NCBI GenBank assembly: GCA_030728985.1
Contig: JANQYI010000009.1
Location: 124,001 to 188,000, forward strand
Length of the DNA stretch: 64,000 nucleotides
Origin: Burkholderiaceae bacterium
GTDB lineage: Bacteria; Pseudomonadota; Gammaproteobacteria; Burkholderiales; Burkholderiaceae_B
Reading direction: 5' to 3'
The translations under genes and the position numbers were made by a program. Positions 37,543 to 50,795 of the stretch are shown one piece after another. How positions within the stretch are numbered: position 1 is the first letter of the stretch; each line of letters starts with the position of its first letter. Below the pieces are notes generated by a model, which was not told the origin of the DNA, searched no databases, and saw only the letters and a list, made by a program, of their open reading frames with translations.

Positions 37543-37757
37543 TGATTGTCCACCTGAAAGAAACCCAATAAGAATAGAAGGATAAGATCTATTCTGATAA
37601 TTGAAACAAACCAAGGGATTTTACCTAGCCTCAAACACACTATTTTCCTCTAGGATCAGGATTCATTACAACAATAACGTCGCAGCGAACAACAAAATAA
37701 AATTTTATGGTTCGCGGCGTCAAATAGACGCCCAATCATCCAGATTTGGAGACATCT

Positions 37758-38738
37758 ATGAAGCTTTTACGAAACGCAACCCTCGTCCTGGCAGGCGCAA
37801 TGACGATGGGCTTAGCTGCTACTGCTTTCTCACAAACTGTCATGCGCAATAGTATCTCGGTCGCGCAAAATTCACATCAGGGTGTTGGCATTGATGTATT
37901 GGCCAGAGAAGTAGAGAAAGGCACCAACGGTCGAATCATTATTAAAAACTTTTATTCAGGTAGCCTAGGTGGAGAAAGAGAAAGTATCGAGTCGGTTCAA
38001 CTCGGTACACAGGAACTCACGGGCACTAGCACTGGACCCGTGCCAAATTTTGTGCCTGCTGTTCGTATTTTAGATATTCCTTTCTTATTTCGTGACAAAG
38101 CGCATGCACGTGCCGTGCTAGACGGTCCGATTGGTCAAGCCATGCTCAAGGAGTTTGACAGTAAAGGTTTCAAGGCACTAGCTTGGTCTGAGAATGGTGT
38201 GCGACACATGACCAACAGCAAGAGACCCGTCAATGGACCCGATGATTTGAAAGGTCTCAAAATGCGTACCATGGAAAATCCCATCCATGTCGCGGCTTAC
38301 AAGGGCTTTGGAATTATCACCACACCAATGGCATTCCCTGAGGTTTTTACTGCCTTGCAACAAGGTGTTGTGGATGGTCAAGAAAACCCTCTTTCAGTCA
38401 TTATGGCTGCAAAGTTTGACCAAGTACAAAAGCACATGACTTTGACAGGTCACGTCTACAGTCCCGCCATTTTTCTGATGAACAAAGCCGCTTTTGACAA
38501 GTTGTCGCCCGCCGATCAAAAGGTGTTCTTAGAGGCGGCCAAGGTTGCCTCTCAGGCTCAACGCGCCCGCGTTGATCAAGACGATGCGAATGGTGTGGCT
38601 GAGTTACGCAAGAAAGGCATGCTGGTGGTAGAAAATGTCGACAAAGCTGCCTTTATCGCAAGACTAAAACCCGTCAATGCACAATTCGAAAAAGAGTTTG
38701 GTAAGAACAAGATCGACGCTATCCGCAACTACAAGTAA
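37758..38738 (+). CDS. dctP: TRAP transporter substrate-binding protein DctP
   Basis: DctP-family periplasmic receptor, 326 aa: signal peptide ending ATAFSQ, 'FYSGSLGGERESIESVQLGTQ', and the carboxylate-binding Arg region 'DLKGLKMRTMENPIHVAAYKGFG'. The start at 37758 has GGAGAC upstream, in preference to the track's 37746. It is divergent from otnK, so a tetronate such as D-erythronate or L-threonate is the likely ligand by context. A strong stem-loop follows the stop. Confidence 0.9.
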   Translation: MKLLRNATLVLAGAMTMGLAATAFSQTVMRNSISVAQNSHQGVGIDVLAREVEKGTNGRIIIKNFYSGSLGGERESIESVQLGTQELTGTSTGPVPNFVPAVRILDIPFLFRDKAHARAVLDGPIGQAMLKEFDSKGFKALAWSENGVRHMTNSKRPVNGPDDLKGLKMRTMENPIHVAAYKGFGIITTPMAFPEVFTALQQGVVDGQENPLSVIMAAKFDQVQKHMTLTGHVYSPAIFLMNKAAFDKLSPADQKVFLEAAKVASQAQRARVDQDDANGVAELRKKGMLVVENVDKAAFIARLKPVNAQFEKEFGKNKIDAIRNYK

Positions 38739-38754
38739 TCTATCGTGACCTGTC

Positions 38755-38784
38755 ATGGGCGTAGCGCGTAAGTGCTACGCCCAT
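38755..38784 (+). terminator. Strong stem-loop between dctP and dctQ
   Basis: ATGGGCGTAGC and GCTACGCCCAT form a perfect 11-bp stem around gcgtaagt (further inner pairing possible), followed by TTCTTCT. It begins 17 nt after the dctP stop and ends 16 nt before the dctQ ATG. It could be a partial terminator or an mRNA stabiliser giving more receptor than permease, a common arrangement for binding-protein genes. Confidence 0.8.
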
Positions 38785-38800
38785 TTCTTCTGGATTCAGA

Positions 38801-39295
38801 ATGAAACAGTTTTTGCTTTCCATAGAAAACCTGACTACCCGTATCTCATTGGTGGTTGCCTGCTTGATGATGGCGCTCGCCGTGACACTCGGACTCTTTC
38901 AGGTCATCATGCGGTTTGTGCTTGAAATTCCCGCTGAATGGACAGAGGTTCTTATTCGCTTCAGTCTGATCTGGATGGTATTTATGGGGATCCCCTATGC
39001 TTTTAGAGTGGGCGCAATGGTGAGCGTTGATGTACTTTCACGCTTGGTTGGTCCGGTTGCCAAACGCTTTTTATCATTTTGCACCTGCATCGCAGCACTG
39101 ACTTTAATGATATGCATTATCTGGTGGGGCTGGGACTATGCCACCCGAGGCCGCATGCAAAGTGTGATAGGCCTTGAGGGCGTCACAATGTTTTGGGCTT
39201 ACCTCGCTTTACCCGTTGGGGGACTTTTCAGCATACCTGCGATTGTGGCGCAGTTTTTTGATTCCAGAAATAGTGAATTGGAGACTGCACAATGA
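38801..39295 (+). CDS. dctQ: TRAP transporter small permease DctQ
   Basis: Small TRAP membrane subunit, 164 aa, four hydrophobic helices, with the typical 'IPAEWTEVLIRFSLIWMVFMG' segment between helices 1 and 2. It couples to DctM: its stop overlaps the dctM ATG by 4 nt. It lies after the stem-loop that follows dctP. Confidence 0.9.
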   Translation: MKQFLLSIENLTTRISLVVACLMMALAVTLGLFQVIMRFVLEIPAEWTEVLIRFSLIWMVFMGIPYAFRVGAMVSVDVLSRLVGPVAKRFLSFCTCIAALTLMICIIWWGWDYATRGRMQSVIGLEGVTMFWAYLALPVGGLFSIPAIVAQFFDSRNSELETAQ

Positions 39296-40566
39296 GCCTG
39301 ACCATGCTGATTACGATGATGCTTTGCTTTACGCTGACGATTTCTGTCGCAGTATCGATCGGACTGGCTGCTGTATTGGGTATTCAGGTCGCCAACATCA
39401 ATATGTTAATAGCAGTCAAAGAGATGTTTAACTCTCTTAACAAATTTCCTTTGGCAGCGATTCCCTTTTTTATTCTCGCTGGCAATCTCATGGAAACGGG
39501 CGGTATTTCGCGACGGCTGGTGGAGTTCGCTAAAAGTATTGTGGGTGGAGTGCAAGGCGGACTGCCAATGACTTGTGTGCTGACCTGCATGATTTTTGCG
39601 GCAGTATCGGGTTCGAGCGTAGCGACAACCTTTGCCATTGGAGCCATCTTAATTCCAGCCCTGATCAAGCACGGCTACCCCACGAACTACGCGGCTGCCC
39701 TTCAAGCGACAAGCGCGGAATTGGGCGTCGTGATACCTCCGTCTATTCCTCTCATTTTATATGGTGTAGCGGCAGAGGTATCGATCGGAGAATTATTTGT
39801 CGCAGGGTTTGGTCCAGGTATTTTTATCGGTTTATCTCTGATGCTGTTTGTCCACCTTTACTGCCGATGGAAAGGCTGGGGCAAGAACGACGGCGACGGC
39901 AGATTGAGTGTTGGACATGCCACCATTCAAGCAGCTTGGGCCTTATTGATGCCCGTCATCATCTTAGGTGGTATTTATGGCGGAATATTCACGCCAACCG
40001 AAGCCGCGGCTGTTGCCGTTTTTTACGCCCTCTTCGTCGGCATGGTGGTGTATCGCGAAATTAAGCCGCAGAATTTATTTTCAGTTCTCAAAAAATCTGT
40101 CGTGTCTAGCGCGGTCATCATGTTCATCATCGCTAACGCTGGATTATTTGCATTTTTATTAACGCGAGCAGGCGTCCCTGGTGATATCGGACGTTGGCTT
40201 AGTGTGGTGCTAGATTCTCCTGTCATGTTTTTACTAGGTGTCAATATCGCCCTGTTTGTGATTGGCATGTTTATTGAAACCAGCGCGGCAATCCTTGTCT
40301 TGGCTCCCATCCTGGTGCCGGTTGCGATGCATTTTGGTGTCGATCCCGTCCACTTCGGACTGATTATGGTGATTAACCTTGCCATGGGGATGATCACGCC
40401 TCCTTTCGGCGTGAACTTGTTCGCCGCTTGTACAATCGCGCGAATCTCTATCGATCAAATCATTGGGCGACTCGTTCCTTTTATTGTGGTGATATTTTGT
40501 TGCCTGATGATGGTCACTTACTTTCCTTCCATCTCACTGACCTTGAGGGATTTAGTTTACAAGTGA
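39292..40566 (+). CDS. dctM: TRAP transporter large permease DctM
   Basis: Large TRAP permease, 424 aa, about twelve hydrophobic segments, driving sodium-coupled uptake. Landmarks: 'FPLAAIPFFILAGNLMETGGIS', 'AAVSGSSVATTFAIGAILIPAL' and 'INLAMGMITPPFGVNLF'. It completes the dctPQM operon that is divergent from the otnK-otnC-denD genes. Confidence 0.92.
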   Translation: MSLTMLITMMLCFTLTISVAVSIGLAAVLGIQVANINMLIAVKEMFNSLNKFPLAAIPFFILAGNLMETGGISRRLVEFAKSIVGGVQGGLPMTCVLTCMIFAAVSGSSVATTFAIGAILIPALIKHGYPTNYAAALQATSAELGVVIPPSIPLILYGVAAEVSIGELFVAGFGPGIFIGLSLMLFVHLYCRWKGWGKNDGDGRLSVGHATIQAAWALLMPVIILGGIYGGIFTPTEAAAVAVFYALFVGMVVYREIKPQNLFSVLKKSVVSSAVIMFIIANAGLFAFLLTRAGVPGDIGRWLSVVLDSPVMFLLGVNIALFVIGMFIETSAAILVLAPILVPVAMHFGVDPVHFGLIMVINLAMGMITPPFGVNLFAACTIARISIDQIIGRLVPFIVVIFCCLMMVTYFPSISLTLRDLVYK

Positions 40567-46148: not shown

Positions 46149-46910
46149 TCAAGCGGCATACCGCGCGCGCCACATCAGAAAAAGCTCTAGCTGTGTCAGT
46201 TCTTTGGAACCCAGGGCATAAGGCTCTGCACGCACACCTGTCATGCAGTTGCGCAGACGGCGTTGCAGTGAACCCACTGTTTGCCATTCGAGTCGGTAAA
46301 TCGGGTATCCCGTGGGATGCGCTTCGGGAATAAAATTTCCTCCAAGCTTGAGTCCTGCGCGCTCCGTGTGACATTGTGCACAGGACAAATTGAGCTGCCC
46401 TATTCGTTGCTCATAGAGTCGTTGCCCGGCGTCGAGGTCTTGCGCGTTGAGCGGCGAACGCGACACCGTAATGGGCATGCCTTTGGAGGCGTGACCGATG
46501 AATGTCGCCAAAGACAATAACGGTTTGCTCTCCATCGCGAGTGGCGCAGCCTGCTGCTTGGCCTCGCGGCACATATTGATCTGACCTTCGAGACTCAATA
46601 ACTGGTGATGCACAACTTTAGGAAAGCTCGCTGCCACCCCTTTCATCGAGGAAGAAGCCTCTCCATGACATTGCGCACACGAAACATTTTTTTGCCCTGA
46701 CGGGGTATTCCACAGTGCCTGCCCATCCAGCACCCAGAAGGTCGCAGGGTTGAGCGTCTCGTCATCCTGCATTTCACGCGTGGACGGCGACATCAATGCG
46801 TAACTCGACTGTCGCTGAGCTAGAGGCGCCTCTGACGCTGTCGATGTTTGTGGCCAAACGATTTGCGCGACAAACAAAAAGAAAAGCGTACAAACAGAAA
46901 ACACGCTCAC
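46149..46910 (-). CDS. soxA: Sulfur oxidation diheme c-type cytochrome SoxA
   Basis: 253-aa periplasmic SoxA with a signal peptide and two heme c sites (SCAQCHGEA, SCAQCHTER). The conserved INMCREAK cysteine and the presumed active-site Cys in LRNCMTGVRAEPYALGS are both present. With SoxX it should couple sulfane sulfur to the SoxY cysteine. It begins with GTG 4 nt after soxZ. It is the last gene of an operon headed by a molybdenum hydroxylase rather than soxB or soxCD. Confidence 0.9.
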   Translation of the reverse strand: MSVFSVCTLFFLFVAQIVWPQTSTASEAPLAQRQSSYALMSPSTREMQDDETLNPATFWVLDGQALWNTPSGQKNVSCAQCHGEASSSMKGVAASFPKVVHHQLLSLEGQINMCREAKQQAAPLAMESKPLLSLATFIGHASKGMPITVSRSPLNAQDLDAGQRLYEQRIGQLNLSCAQCHTERAGLKLGGNFIPEAHPTGYPIYRLEWQTVGSLQRRLRNCMTGVRAEPYALGSKELTQLELFLMWRARYAA

Positions 46911-46914
46911 GAGA

Positions 46915-47244
46915 TCATGTCACCGTAAGCGTACTGGTCATATTGGAGGCATAGCCGTTATCACCCGTCCATTTGAATTCGAGCTTGCCGGTTTGGGTCG
47001 CTACCGTAAAAAAACTAAAGGTAGGATTCGCGCCCATCGCGGGATGCAACTCAGCGCGAAAGACCTCCACACCATCATAGATGCATACAAAATCGCGAAT
47101 GATGTCACGCGCCACGCGTACACCGCGATCGGTGTGCCTGAAACCTGATTCCATATCATGCTGAACAATCACGCGAATCGGAACAATTTCGCCCTTTGTC
47201 GCAGTCTTGGGCATGGAAACGACGGTGCGGGAGGTTTTGCTCAT
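46915..47244 (-). CDS. soxZ: Thiosulfate oxidation carrier complex protein SoxZ
   Basis: 109-aa SoxZ immunoglobulin-like partner of SoxY: 'KGEIVPIRVIVQHDMESGFR' and the end 'FKWTGDNGYASNMTSTLTV' resemble the family. It has no signal peptide; SoxZ is exported with SoxY through Tat. Its ATG overlaps the soxY stop by 4 nt. Confidence 0.9.
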   Translation of the reverse strand: MSKTSRTVVSMPKTATKGEIVPIRVIVQHDMESGFRHTDRGVRVARDIIRDFVCIYDGVEVFRAELHPAMGANPTFSFFTVATQTGKLEFKWTGDNGYASNMTSTLTVT

Positions 47245-47693
47245 ATCAGCACATCCTCAGTACAGGCCGCAAGGGTGACCACCGTATCCGCATGACCCTG
47301 CCAGAACGACCCATCATTCATTTCAGCGATCGCCCAAAGGCGTTGCGATGTCAACAAGCGGATCCGCGTACTGACTTGCGCACGGCCGGCGCGGGCACCC
47401 AAATTAAAACTGACAATATTGGGCAACGGATTTTTCTCAGAAATAATATGAATGGCTTTTACGAAGTCCGTCGATGTCATCGGACTTTCCACCGAGACGG
47501 TCATGGGCACCAGATTGCCGTTTTCGACTAGCGGTGCGATATCGAGCGTGACTCGACCCACGCGAGGGTCAGCTTGACCGACGATCTTTTTGATTGTCTC
47601 GACGGCTTCGCTCGTCGTCGCTTGGGCATTTAACCAAGGTACGACGCTCACAGATCCGAGTGCCACAATGAAGCTTCTACGACTTGTGCTCAT
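47241..47693 (-). CDS. soxY: SoxY-like carrier protein with variant C-terminal arm (AACTEDVLI)
   Basis: 150-aa SoxY homologue with a Tat-type N-terminus (MSTSRRSFIVALGSVSVVPW). Classical SoxY ends in a flexible GGCGG arm whose Cys carries the sulfur substrate. This one ends VVTLAACTEDVLI, so the carrier Cys (residue 144) is kept at the aligned site, but the glycines are replaced and the arm is longer. It resembles the family I recall as 'SoxY-related AACIE arm protein'. ATGA overlaps join it to soxX before and soxZ after. Function may differ from thiosulfate oxidation. Confidence 0.85.
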   Translation of the reverse strand: MSTSRRSFIVALGSVSVVPWLNAQATTSEAVETIKKIVGQADPRVGRVTLDIAPLVENGNLVPMTVSVESPMTSTDFVKAIHIISEKNPLPNIVSFNLGARAGRAQVSTRIRLLTSQRLWAIAEMNDGSFWQGHADTVVTLAACTEDVLI

Positions 47694-48145
47694 GGTTTTA
47701 AGCTCACTAAAAATGCCACGACGTCCTCGATTTCCTGTGCAGTCAGAATGGTTTTATCGGCGAACTGAGAACCAATCCGAGAACCGTGGTTCTTTTTGAA
47801 ATACGGTGGCATGATCGTGTTTGGATTAAAGCGGCTCGCGTCGACAATACGCGCCCGCAGCTGCTCGGGTGAAAGTCTCGCCGCGCTTATCGCCAGATCA
47901 GGCGCCAGATTTCCCTGAAAACGTTCTTCGGGGAAAGGTCCACTATGACACAAGATACACAAACCGCTCTGGCGACTCAAGATAATCAATCGCCCCCGCG
48001 CAGGATCACCAGGGGCGCCAGAAAGGGAGTCCGCAATGACCTCCCCTTCAGTGACTTTTACATCGACCTGCTGAGCCAGAGTGATCGCTGGTGCCGCCAA
48101 CACAAAACATGCTGTCAACAACCAATTTATCACTCCATGCGTCAT
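47690..48145 (-). CDS. soxX: Sulfur oxidation monoheme c-type cytochrome SoxX
   Basis: 151-aa SoxX with a signal peptide (ending ITLAQQ), one heme site (GLCILCHSGP), and SoxX landmarks 'GDPARGR', 'FQGNLAPDL', 'LRARIVDASRFNPNTIMPPY' and the end 'LTAQEIEDVVAFLVSLKP'. The axial Met is probably the one in TIMPPY. Its ATG overlaps the molybdenum hydroxylase stop and its stop overlaps the soxY ATG. Confidence 0.9.
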   Translation of the reverse strand: MTHGVINWLLTACFVLAAPAITLAQQVDVKVTEGEVIADSLSGAPGDPARGRLIILSRQSGLCILCHSGPFPEERFQGNLAPDLAISAARLSPEQLRARIVDASRFNPNTIMPPYFKKNHGSRIGSQFADKTILTAQEIEDVVAFLVSLKP

Positions 48146-50331
48146 ACCAAAGTAAAGCCACTATTCTTTAAAGGCACATCACGCAAACGCTTACCCGTGG
48201 CACGATAAATCGCGTTCAACACGGCAGGCGCAGCAACCGCGATCGTTGGTTCGCCGATACCACCCCAAGTCTTACCGCCCCCTTGGATAATGATGGTTTC
48301 AACTTTGGGCATCTGTCCCAGTCGGATCGAACCAAACGTATCGAAGTTCTTTTGCTCGACGCGTCCATCCTTGATCGTGCACTCCTCCTCGAAGAGTGCG
48401 GATAATCCGTAAACGAACGAACCAGAAACTTGGCGTTGAATCTGCGCGGGATTGACCGCGTATCCGCAGTCGGTCGAGGCCACAATACGATGAATCTTGA
48501 CCTTGTTGCCATCGGTTACCGACAACTCGCATGCCGCGGCCACATAGCTGCCAAACGACATCATCTGCGCAATGCCACGATGAACGCCCTTGGGGGCGGG
48601 CTTGGTCCAACCAATCCCATCCGCCACGGCGTTGAGTGCGGCCAGATTGCGTGGATATTTCGCCATATACTTTCTACGGAACTCGACGGGATCCATGCCT
48701 GCGTACTCGGCGAGTTCATCCATGAAACATTCAATAAAAATCGCGTTTTGATTGATGTTCACACCACGCCAGAAGCCTGGTGGCACATGGGTATTGCGCA
48801 TGGCGTGATCCATCAGCTGATTAGGGAACTCGTAGCTGATCGCATGTTCTCCGGCTTGCATCACGCCTTGAAACACCAAAAGGTCACGACCCTTATCCTT
48901 GGCGACGATCGCGGGACGCACGGCGGACAAGATGGACTGACCCGATAAACGCATATGCACGCCTGTCAAGTTTTTGTTGGCGTCAAAGGCGCCTGTCAAC
49001 TTACACATCATGACGGGATGGTAACGGCCTTGCGTCATATCCTCTTCGCGCGTCCAAATCAGTTTGATCGGTACGCCGGGCATTTGCTTGGCGATATTGA
49101 CCGCTTGAGTGGTGTAGTCCTGGAACGCGCCACGACGTCCAAAACCACCGCCCAAATTGATCTTGTAAACCTCACATTTATCTGCAGCCAATCCCGAGGC
49201 TGCAATGACCGCAGCCAAAGAAGCCTCGCCGTCCTGAGTCGGCACCCACGCCTCGCAGCGCTCCGGTGTCCACTTGGCGGTCGCATTCATGACTTCCATG
49301 GGTGCATGGTTCAAGAACGGGTAGAAATACGTTGACTCGATTTTTTTGGCCGCGCCAGCCATAGCGGCCTTGGTGTCGCCACGTTGATTCCCCACAAAGG
49401 CCTGTTCAGCGTTCAGACCTTCTTTGAGCATCGCAGCAATCGAGGCGCTCGAGACCTTTGCATTTGGACCTTCGTCCCAGACGATGGGCAGAGCATCCAT
49501 GGCCGTCTTGGCGACCCAGAACGTATCGGCCACGACCGCGACAGAGCTGTCACTGACCTGTACGACTTTTTTTACGCCCTTCATACCCATGACTTTGCTG
49601 GCATCAAAGCTTTTGATCTTGCCACCAAAAACCGGGGATTGCTTGATCGTCGCGACCAACATACCGGGCAATTTCAAATCCATACCGTAGATCTGCTTAC
49701 CGGTTACCTTGTCTTCGAAGGTGTCGATCCGTGGCACGGACTTGCCGATGATTTTCCAGTTTTTCGGATCTTTCAGCGGAATATCTTTAGGCACGGCAAG
49801 TTTGGACGCGGCATCCGCGACTTTGCCATACGTGATCGTACGACTTGTCGGCTTGTGCGTAATCACACCTTCAGAAACCACGCACTCTGCGACGGGCACT
49901 TTCCAACCGTCGGCAGCGGCCTGGACCAGCATCATGCGCGCCGCTGCACCACCTTGGCGGACATATTGTTCAGAGGTGCGAATCCCGCGGCTTCCGCCCG
50001 TCGAGAATGAACCCCAGGGATTTTTACGCTTGAGACTTTCGCCGGGAGTCGGATACTCGATGGTGACATTTTTCCAGTTGCACTCGAGTTCTTCGGCCAC
50101 CATTTGTGCCAGACCAGTGATAGTGCCTTGGCCCATCTCGGAGCGCACCACACGCACGATGACTTTCTCATCGGGCTTGATCACCACCCAAACACCAATT
50201 TCAGGTGCGGCGCCAGCGGATTGCGCAAGACTACTAAAGGGAAATTGTAGACCCAGAGCCAGACCGGTACTGACGGCAGTTGTGCCGACGATAAAGTGTC
50301 TGCGGGAAGGATTCGGGACGCGTGCATTCAT
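48142..50331 (-). CDS. Periplasmic molybdopterin-binding hydroxylase large subunit (IorB-like, xanthine dehydrogenase family)
   Basis: 729-aa molybdenum-cofactor subunit of the xanthine oxidase family, closest in layout to isoquinoline 1-oxidoreductase beta and membrane-associated aldehyde dehydrogenases. A Tat signal is evident (SRRHFIVGTTAVSTGLALG), so it works in the periplasm. The catalytic Glu is in GGIGEPTIA, and 'GGGFGRRGAFQDY' contacts the cofactor. Electrons could pass through the 2Fe-2S subunit to a c-type cytochrome. It is coupled to soxX by an ATGA overlap. The substrate is unknown. Confidence 0.9.
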   Translation of the reverse strand: MNARVPNPSRRHFIVGTTAVSTGLALGLQFPFSSLAQSAGAAPEIGVWVVIKPDEKVIVRVVRSEMGQGTITGLAQMVAEELECNWKNVTIEYPTPGESLKRKNPWGSFSTGGSRGIRTSEQYVRQGGAAARMMLVQAAADGWKVPVAECVVSEGVITHKPTSRTITYGKVADAASKLAVPKDIPLKDPKNWKIIGKSVPRIDTFEDKVTGKQIYGMDLKLPGMLVATIKQSPVFGGKIKSFDASKVMGMKGVKKVVQVSDSSVAVVADTFWVAKTAMDALPIVWDEGPNAKVSSASIAAMLKEGLNAEQAFVGNQRGDTKAAMAGAAKKIESTYFYPFLNHAPMEVMNATAKWTPERCEAWVPTQDGEASLAAVIAASGLAADKCEVYKINLGGGFGRRGAFQDYTTQAVNIAKQMPGVPIKLIWTREEDMTQGRYHPVMMCKLTGAFDANKNLTGVHMRLSGQSILSAVRPAIVAKDKGRDLLVFQGVMQAGEHAISYEFPNQLMDHAMRNTHVPPGFWRGVNINQNAIFIECFMDELAEYAGMDPVEFRRKYMAKYPRNLAALNAVADGIGWTKPAPKGVHRGIAQMMSFGSYVAAACELSVTDGNKVKIHRIVASTDCGYAVNPAQIQRQVSGSFVYGLSALFEEECTIKDGRVEQKNFDTFGSIRLGQMPKVETIIIQGGGKTWGGIGEPTIAVAAPAVLNAIYRATGKRLRDVPLKNSGFTLV

Positions 50332-50342
50332 GTGAGGACCCC

Positions 50343-50795
50343 TTAAGCTTTAGCAACTGAGTGAATCGCGGCGCGAACTTCCTGGAAACTTCCGCAACGA
50401 CAAATATTCGTAATCGCCGCATCGATGTCAGCATCGGTGGGCTTTGGCTTTTTAGCCAGCAAATCGGTCGCAGCCATCAACATGCCTGATTGACAGAAAC
50501 CACACTGGGGGACTTGATGATCGATCCAAGCCTGTTGCAACTTGGTCAGCTTGCCATCCTTGGCTAGACCCTCGATCGTCGTGACACTTTTACCCGCAGC
50601 GGCACTCACTGGAATGACGCAAGAGCGAATCGCTTGGCCCTCGAGCATCACCGTACAGGAACCACACTGCGCCACACCACAACCATACTTGGTGCCGGTC
50701 AGTCCAACCTGTTCGCGGATCGCCCACAATAAGGGTGTATTTGGATCCACATCAATGCTTTGCGGCGTGCCATTAACAGTGAGTTTTATAGCCAT
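50343..50795 (-). CDS. (2Fe-2S)-binding subunit of molybdenum hydroxylase (IorA-like)
   Basis: 150-aa small subunit with two 2Fe-2S clusters: the plant-ferredoxin type ([15 protein letters not shown] with RSC) and the second CGFCQSGM ... CRCG type. It has no export signal of its own, so it must travel with the Tat-targeted large subunit. First gene of the operon, 11 nt before the large-subunit gene. Confidence 0.92.

Follow-up and report, generated by a model that had tools for sequence, protein, structure and literature searches.

An AAC-arm SoxY encoded with a xanthine oxidase-family molybdenum hydroxylase marks a widespread variant of the Sox carrier module

SoxYZ is the carrier of the thiosulfate oxidation pathway, and several enzymes share its arm. 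Among the closest described relatives of the locus reported here is the second sox cluster of Starkeya novella, soxX2Y2Z2A2F2, which Kappler and colleagues found together with a xanthine oxidase-family molybdenum (Mo) enzyme and without SoxB or SoxCD. In that study, none of the growth conditions used, thiosulfate among them, yielded detectable SoxAX or SoxYZ protein from the cluster; transcript levels were very low, and no function was proposed (PMC3797975). The cluster matches the present operon in gene content and in having neither soxB nor soxCD, and differs from it in having SoxF, like other Alphaproteobacteria. In Bradyrhizobium diazoefficiens, soxY1 alone is essential for thiosulfate oxidation and soxY2 is dispensable (PMC5748708); a genome labelled as this species (L139) carries an AAC-type SoxY, so soxY2 of strain USDA110 is probably an AAC-arm protein. 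A further relative is the TIGR04557 family of SoxYZ-like carriers, associated with quinoprotein dehydrogenases and not with sulfur oxidation (PMC12997753). It, too, is a carrier of SoxYZ type whose partner is a periplasmic dehydrogenase and not SoxB, but its Y and Z parts are fused in one protein and its enzyme is a PQQ enzyme. A survey of SoxY arms published in 2024 kept only sequences with GGC and thereby passed over the AAC-arm family (PMC11237559). Among the papers text-searched here, none names both SoxY and AACIE.

The soxY gene, its carrier arm and its operon

The window analysed, 64,000 nucleotides of contig JANQYI010000009.1 from a Burkholderiaceae bacterium, carries an operon on its minus strand in the order FeS-MoL-soxX-soxY-soxZ-soxA, with overlaps or gaps of no more than 12 bases. 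Its features are as follows.

50343..50795, minus strand: small (FeS) subunit of a xanthine oxidase-family Mo hydroxylase with two [2Fe-2S] domains, 150 aa (Pfam Fer2, Fer2_2)
48142..50331, minus strand: large Mo-cofactor subunit (MoL), IorB-like, 729 aa, with the twin-arginine signal SRRHFIVG (Pfam MoCoBD_1/MoCoBD_2)
47690..48145, minus strand: soxX-type monoheme cytochrome c, 151 aa (TIGR04485, 77.8 bits, cut-off 61)
47241..47693, minus strand: soxY paralogue, 150 aa, with the Cys144 carrier arm (TIGR04487, SoxY fold)
47241..47270, minus strand: carrier arm AACTEDVLI-stop in place of GGCGG (translation, frames checked)
46915..47244, minus strand: soxZ, 109 aa, its start overlapping the soxY stop (Pfam SoxZ, 73.9 bits)
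46149..46910, minus strand: soxA, diheme, active-site Cys ligand kept in LQRRLRNC (TIGR04484, 199.4 bits, cut-off 110)

The initial annotation had read a SoxY with Cys144 and an AACTEDVLI arm at this position, and its codons, coordinates and translation proved exact: the reverse complement of 47241-47270 is GCG GCC TGT ACT GAG GAT GTG CTG ATA TGA, that is, AACTEDVLI-stop, at the end of an ORF running from 47693 to 47241. The protein thus ends in ...TLAACTEDVLI, with the carrier Cys as residue 144. A sequencing frameshift hiding GGCGG, the error which that annotation had allowed for, is ruled out: GGCGG is absent from the other two frames of 47241-47270, and relatives have the same arm. Nor is the arm a sequencing slip, because the SoxY of Zwartia vadi (L094), the nearest named relative (SoxY 78% identical, Mo subunit 94%), ends in AACTEEVLV, because the soxY stop and soxZ start overlap as ATGA, and because the operon genes are under strong purifying selection. 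In comparison with Zwartia, dN/dS is 0.03 for the FeS subunit, 0.02 for MoL and 0.11 for SoxX; for SoxY, SoxZ and SoxA the synonymous sites are saturated, and pN is just 0.06-0.16. In the predicted structure, residues 141-150 follow a strand at 130-140 and are unstructured (pLDDT 58), which places Cys144 on a flexible arm. The remainder folds as SoxY, with the Paracoccus SoxYZ complex as the top PDB match (2oxg; TM 0.88 by target length), and the carrier Cys is invariant in the SoxY alignment (A3).

The family named in the initial annotation, "SoxY-related AACIE arm protein", exists as NCBIfam TIGR04487 (SoxY_para_1), and the protein passes its curated cut-off over the whole length (195.7 bits against 172, residues 5-146). 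It has the non-glycine AAC-x-E arm of that family, differing by a Thr where the family name has Ile and by four additional residues past the Glu; the name states no function. The replacement of Ile by Thr had been read correctly but is not peculiar to the window: AACTE is the most frequent version of the arm among the sampled loci (40 loci, against 3 with AACIE) and is therefore no oddity here. Against the family of true SoxY, TIGR04488, the protein scores 86.8 bits, below the cut-off of 125; the adjacent SoxZ scores 62.3 bits against true SoxZ (TIGR04490, cut-off 76); and SoxY reaches 53.5 bits against TIGR04557, where the cut-off is 140. Canonical SoxY (TIGR04488; 2oxg, 4uwq) shares with it the fold, a soxZ in the operon and a lone C-terminal carrier Cys on a flexible arm, predicted as such here. 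The GGCGG arm and the in-operon soxB of thiosulfate-oxidising SoxY are both missing, however, with no soxB near, and the protein falls in a separate clade of a tree computed without the arm. We conclude that the arm is that of a member of a catalogued family, and that it marks a widespread Sox-variant module of uncharacterised function.

The enzyme encoded upstream has the Mo-cofactor domains, the catalytic Glu and the two 2Fe-2S domains of a xanthine oxidase-family Mo hydroxylase. The GxGEP glutamate is conserved in MoL (GGIGEP here), and 123 of 124 relatives conserve the plant-type cluster cysteines of the FeS subunit. An FAD subunit is missing from the module. Domain order, the GxGEP glutamate and the 2Fe-2S small subunit are shared with IorAB-like two-subunit Tat-signal Mo hydroxylases and with 8gy3, whose aldehyde dehydrogenase large subunit (8gy3_C) is the nearest solved structure to MoL; the AlphaFold model of MoL was poor (mean pLDDT 65) and was set aside. 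Against the NCBIfam equivalogs for Mo hydroxylases whose substrate is known (xanthine, CO, aldehyde, 4-hydroxybenzoyl-CoA) the best score was 161.7 bits, with a cut-off of 780. The enzyme differs from other Mo hydroxylases in belonging to a subfamily of its own, mostly SoxYZ-linked, with about 47% or more identity inside it and 39% or less to most other paralogues of the same genome. SoxA and SoxX together have the features of a SoxXA complex, a Cys-ligated active-site heme in SoxA and the SoxX heme: LQRRLRNC aligns with the ligand Cys region of 1h31 (alignment to 1h31/2c1d), and the active-site Cys and two hemes of SoxA are conserved in nearly all relatives. Genes for a TRAP-type transporter (periplasmic binding protein plus the small and the large membrane subunit) lie at 37746-40566, about 5.6 kb downstream from the operon's sox genes.

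Contig C13 of the same genome carries another sox operon, which is complete (soxC-soxD-soxY(GGCGG)-soxZ-soxA-soxX-soxB), so two carriers coexist, each with its own operon. The only soxB of the genome is in this canonical operon, on a different contig from the AAC-arm operon; the earlier statement that SoxB is missing holds for the operon but not for the genome, and an organism without SoxB is ruled out. At the canonical locus (C13:34001-54000, L034) an FCSD/cytochrome pair is found close by on the opposite strand, and the soxC region is partly masked.

Arm type, molybdenum hydroxylase genes and soxB across genomes

Two samples were used. The order sample (300 genomes) comprised the neighbourhoods of AAC-type matches and the canonical soxY/soxB loci of the same genomes; in the second, phylum-wide sample the loci were selected by SoxY alone. 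A Mo gene was counted as nearby within 6.5 kb (order set) or on the retrieved sequence piece (phylum set). The named loci L094-L173, gathered via the Mo subunit and biased for Mo linkage, were excluded from these counts.

Over both samples, Mo-hydroxylase genes lay near 57 of 63 non-GGC SoxY genes and soxB near none of the 63. The initial annotation had suggested that the AAC-type arm goes with Mo-hydroxylase genes and away from soxB, and the counts agree; the pattern it had named as contrary, such arms being common in SoxB operons, did not appear. GGC SoxY genes had Mo genes near in 1 of 52 cases (arm GGCNP, L076) and soxB near in 44 of 52, the latter figure being inflated because part of the order-sample GGC loci were picked at soxB. 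In the phylum sample, a Mo gene accompanied 7/7 non-GGC against 0/13 GGC SoxYs, and soxB 0/7 against 12/13. The Mo enzyme was held by all 52 arm-bearing genomes of the order sample and by 8 of the 248 others, two of which carry a linked divergent SoxY with the arm SACYDG (L225, L226). For the six non-GGC loci without an adjacent Mo gene, a same-subfamily Mo gene was present elsewhere in all 5 genomes searched, plus one further. From the association of arm and Mo genes and the split from soxB we conclude that AAC-arm SoxYZ is very probably a dedicated Mo-hydroxylase carrier module.

The module was present in about 17% of the genomes in the order sample and in 8% of those in the phylum sample, the latter figure with non-AAC matches included. 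It is commoner in sulfur-oxidising genomes: soxB occurs somewhere in 37 of the 52 AAC genomes, against 103 of 248 others. The remaining 15 AAC genomes have no soxB (13 of them are at least 92% complete), so the module does not depend on SoxB. In many genomes soxCD is already present with the GGCGG operon. FeS-MoL pairs of the same subfamily also occur without sox genes, a few of them in genomes without any AAC SoxY. The Mo enzyme can therefore work without the carrier, and a strict dependence of the enzyme on SoxYZ is ruled out by these unlinked paralogues.

Evolution and variants of the module

In the SoxY tree, computed without the arm residues, a Mo-linked clade (SH-aLRT 93) stands apart from the main GGCGG/SoxB clade (99). 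The arm class switches about four times in all, and just one or two independent pairs allow arm and Mo linkage to be compared. The association is essentially one ancient origin, kept across Alpha- and Betaproteobacteria by co-inheritance and not by repeated convergence. With one or two independent changes, the association alone is no proof that the partner shapes the arm; the suggestion that the altered arm fits a different partner is upheld by the association with the Mo hydroxylase but not as a demonstration of such shaping. Many groupings of the SoxY tree recur in the tree of the Mo subunit, where the unlinked paralogues are scattered.

When the neighbouring genes of the order set were clustered without bias, the FeS subunit, MoL, X, Y, Z and A came out as conserved, with no seventh module gene; the next cluster was a generic solute-binding family. 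X and A are lost in some loci while FeS-MoL-Y-Z remains. Of the branches of the Mo-linked clade that lack X and A, one has SSDCGL-like arms and another has retained AACLEEL. In the order set, an acidic-type arm was found in 31/31 loci with Mo genes and XA, and a non-acidic one in 13/20 loci without XA. On the SoxY tree XA was lost in several lineages and the arm relaxed in just one. An acidic residue after the Cys is not claimed as a marker of SoxXA, because most XA losses keep the arm and because AACLIG arms occur with XA in L242-L245. Many Alphaproteobacteria have a Tat-signal FCSD/SoxF-related flavoprotein between MoL and X, some with its monoheme cytochrome, and this FCSD points to a sulfide or persulfide product. 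In one family, ModE-like, XdhC/MobA-like, moaA, moaC and moeA genes, identified by eye from their sequences, come after the cluster; the Mo-cofactor genes among them speak for a functional Mo enzyme.

Several loci depart from this layout. At L242-L245 the cluster has AACLIG/AACVIG arms and SoxEF-like proteins, and Mo-cofactor genes come after it together with ModE-like and XdhC/MobA-like ones. FeS-MoL-Y-Z without soxX and soxA, with SSDCGL, VAGCGL or LTACGG-like arms, is found at L046, L049, L050, L053, L056 and L059, and likewise at L060, L062, L064, L067, L069 and L074; loci of this type are a second arm family of the FeS-MoL-Y-Z module. At L063 and L070 an AAC-arm soxXYZA (arm TACLDA) has no adjacent Mo hydroxylase and lies 3-4 kb from soxCD, and both genomes have an additional, separate FeS-MoL-Y-Z locus. 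L098, L100 and L103 carry a tandem pair of FeS-MoL units before the sox genes. A three-heme SoxA-like protein of 414 aa is encoded with soxY (GGCGG) and soxZ at L085:8466-10515; the retrieved piece holds no soxB, and the SoxY body branches close to the Mo-linked clade. At L174, L175, L181 and L182, GGC-type SoxYs (GGCAG, GGCGE, GGCGT) lie beside X, Z and A, with soxB not nearby; they are possibly a third SoxY class.

A proposed carrier-bound reaction and its alternatives

The data show the partnership itself: an operon FeS-MoL-X-Y(AAC arm)-Z-A that is conserved, strictly separate from GGCGG/SoxB operons and intact in its catalytic residues. That the Mo enzyme acts on a cargo held at Cys144, and the order of the steps, we infer. 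We hold at even odds the overall explanation, the reaction steps below included: a Sox-like module independent of SoxB, with SoxYZ as the dedicated carrier of a periplasmic Mo hydroxylase. Cys144 on its flexible arm would bind the cargo covalently. SoxXA, with its heme-ligating Cys intact, would load a thiol-type compound onto Cys144 as a disulfide and pass the electrons on, and the Mo enzyme, which has Mo and 2Fe-2S but lacks an FAD subunit, would oxidise the cargo bound to the carrier, the bulkier AAC(T/L/I)(E/D) arm being fitted to the entrance of its active site. Xanthine oxidase-family enzymes hydroxylate carbon, so a carbon-containing thiol is the simplest cargo that fits both SoxXA loading and a downstream FCSD; the likeliest candidate would be a small organic thiol or thiol adduct, although we put forward an organic thiol only tentatively. 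Oxidation beside the sulfur would free an aldehyde or acid and leave a persulfide or sulfide on the carrier, which would explain the presence of SoxF/FCSD in Alphaproteobacteria; SoxB would be unneeded because no sulfonate would be formed. That FeS-MoL-Y-Z survives gene loss argues for the carrier, and against the cytochromes, as the essential partner. The complete sequence, in which the Mo hydroxylase hydroxylates the carbon of a SoxXA-loaded organic thiol on SoxYZ and a sulfide dehydrogenase clears the carrier persulfide, is a possibility short of likely. Against this explanation, the acidic residue after the Cys is not universal: arms are AACLIG in L242-L245 and SSDCGL-like in the clade without X and A.

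The same genes could serve inorganic sulfur, if the Mo hydroxylase replaced SoxCD: SoxXA would load thiosulfate or sulfide, the Mo enzyme would oxidise the carrier-bound sulfane sulfur, and release would fall to SoxB of the canonical operon or to spontaneous loss. SoxXA and, in Alphaproteobacteria, FCSD are conserved inorganic-sulfur enzymes, soxB is enriched in arm-bearing genomes (the 37/52 against 103/248 above), and the AAC-arm XYZA genes of L063 and L070 lie 3-4 kb from soxCD. We nevertheless consider this reading unlikely, as the 15 arm-bearing genomes without soxB speak against it, the Mo enzyme belongs to the carbon-hydroxylating xanthine oxidase family and not to that of SoxC and sulfite oxidase, soxCD already stands beside the GGCGG operon in many genomes, and the Starkeya novella cluster was undetected on thiosulfate (PMC3797975). 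That the cluster was undetected, with very low transcript under the conditions tried in that study (PMC3797975), agrees with the suggestion made for Starkeya novella that it redundantly duplicates the thiosulfate Sox system and has no function of its own. Such redundancy is very improbable given the frequency of the module (about 17% of order genomes, 8% of the phylum sample, non-AAC matches included), the soxB-free genomes that carry it, the purifying selection and the constant presence of the same Mo enzyme.

Two further readings keep the Mo hydroxylase and change the role of the carrier. SoxYZ may be a maintenance factor, its periplasmic persulfide replenishing the labile sulfur of the Mo=S group in the exported enzyme. 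Mo=S insertion in the xanthine oxidase family is cytoplasmic and precedes Tat export, which argues against such repair; it would also leave no role for FCSD and a weak one for the conserved SoxA active-site Cys, and unlinked FeS-MoL paralogues exist without SoxYZ. FeS-MoL-Y-Z as the minimal conserved unit favours it, as do the TIGR04557 carriers, which go with quinoprotein dehydrogenases and not with sulfur oxidation (PMC12997753); we rate it as distinctly unlikely. Rather less probable again is that the Sox genes supply only an electron-transfer partner, SoxXA taking electrons from a Mo hydroxylase that acts on an ordinary aldehyde or N-heterocycle, with SoxYZ merely carried along. Related Mo hydroxylases pass electrons to cytochromes c, the FAD subunit is missing here, and 8gy3, the closest relative with a solved structure, is an aldehyde dehydrogenase; yet gene loss removes X and A and keeps Y-Z, the carrier Cys is invariant (alignment A3), and SoxY is under purifying selection.

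A SoxYZ with a different arm, in the company of a Mo hydroxylase and never of SoxB, occurs in about one in six genomes of the order sample and in many Bradyrhizobium, and it does so even where the genome has no soxB. Matches to soxX, soxY, soxZ and soxA in genomes and metagenomes need not imply thiosulfate oxidation, and the arm distinguishes the two cases. If the dedicated-carrier explanation is true, carrier-bound chemistry would reach one more class of enzymes, and an orphan enzyme of wide distribution would acquire a testable substrate. If the organic-thiol route is also true, it would be a carrier-bound route of organosulfur oxidation, with the arm sequence as a partner code.
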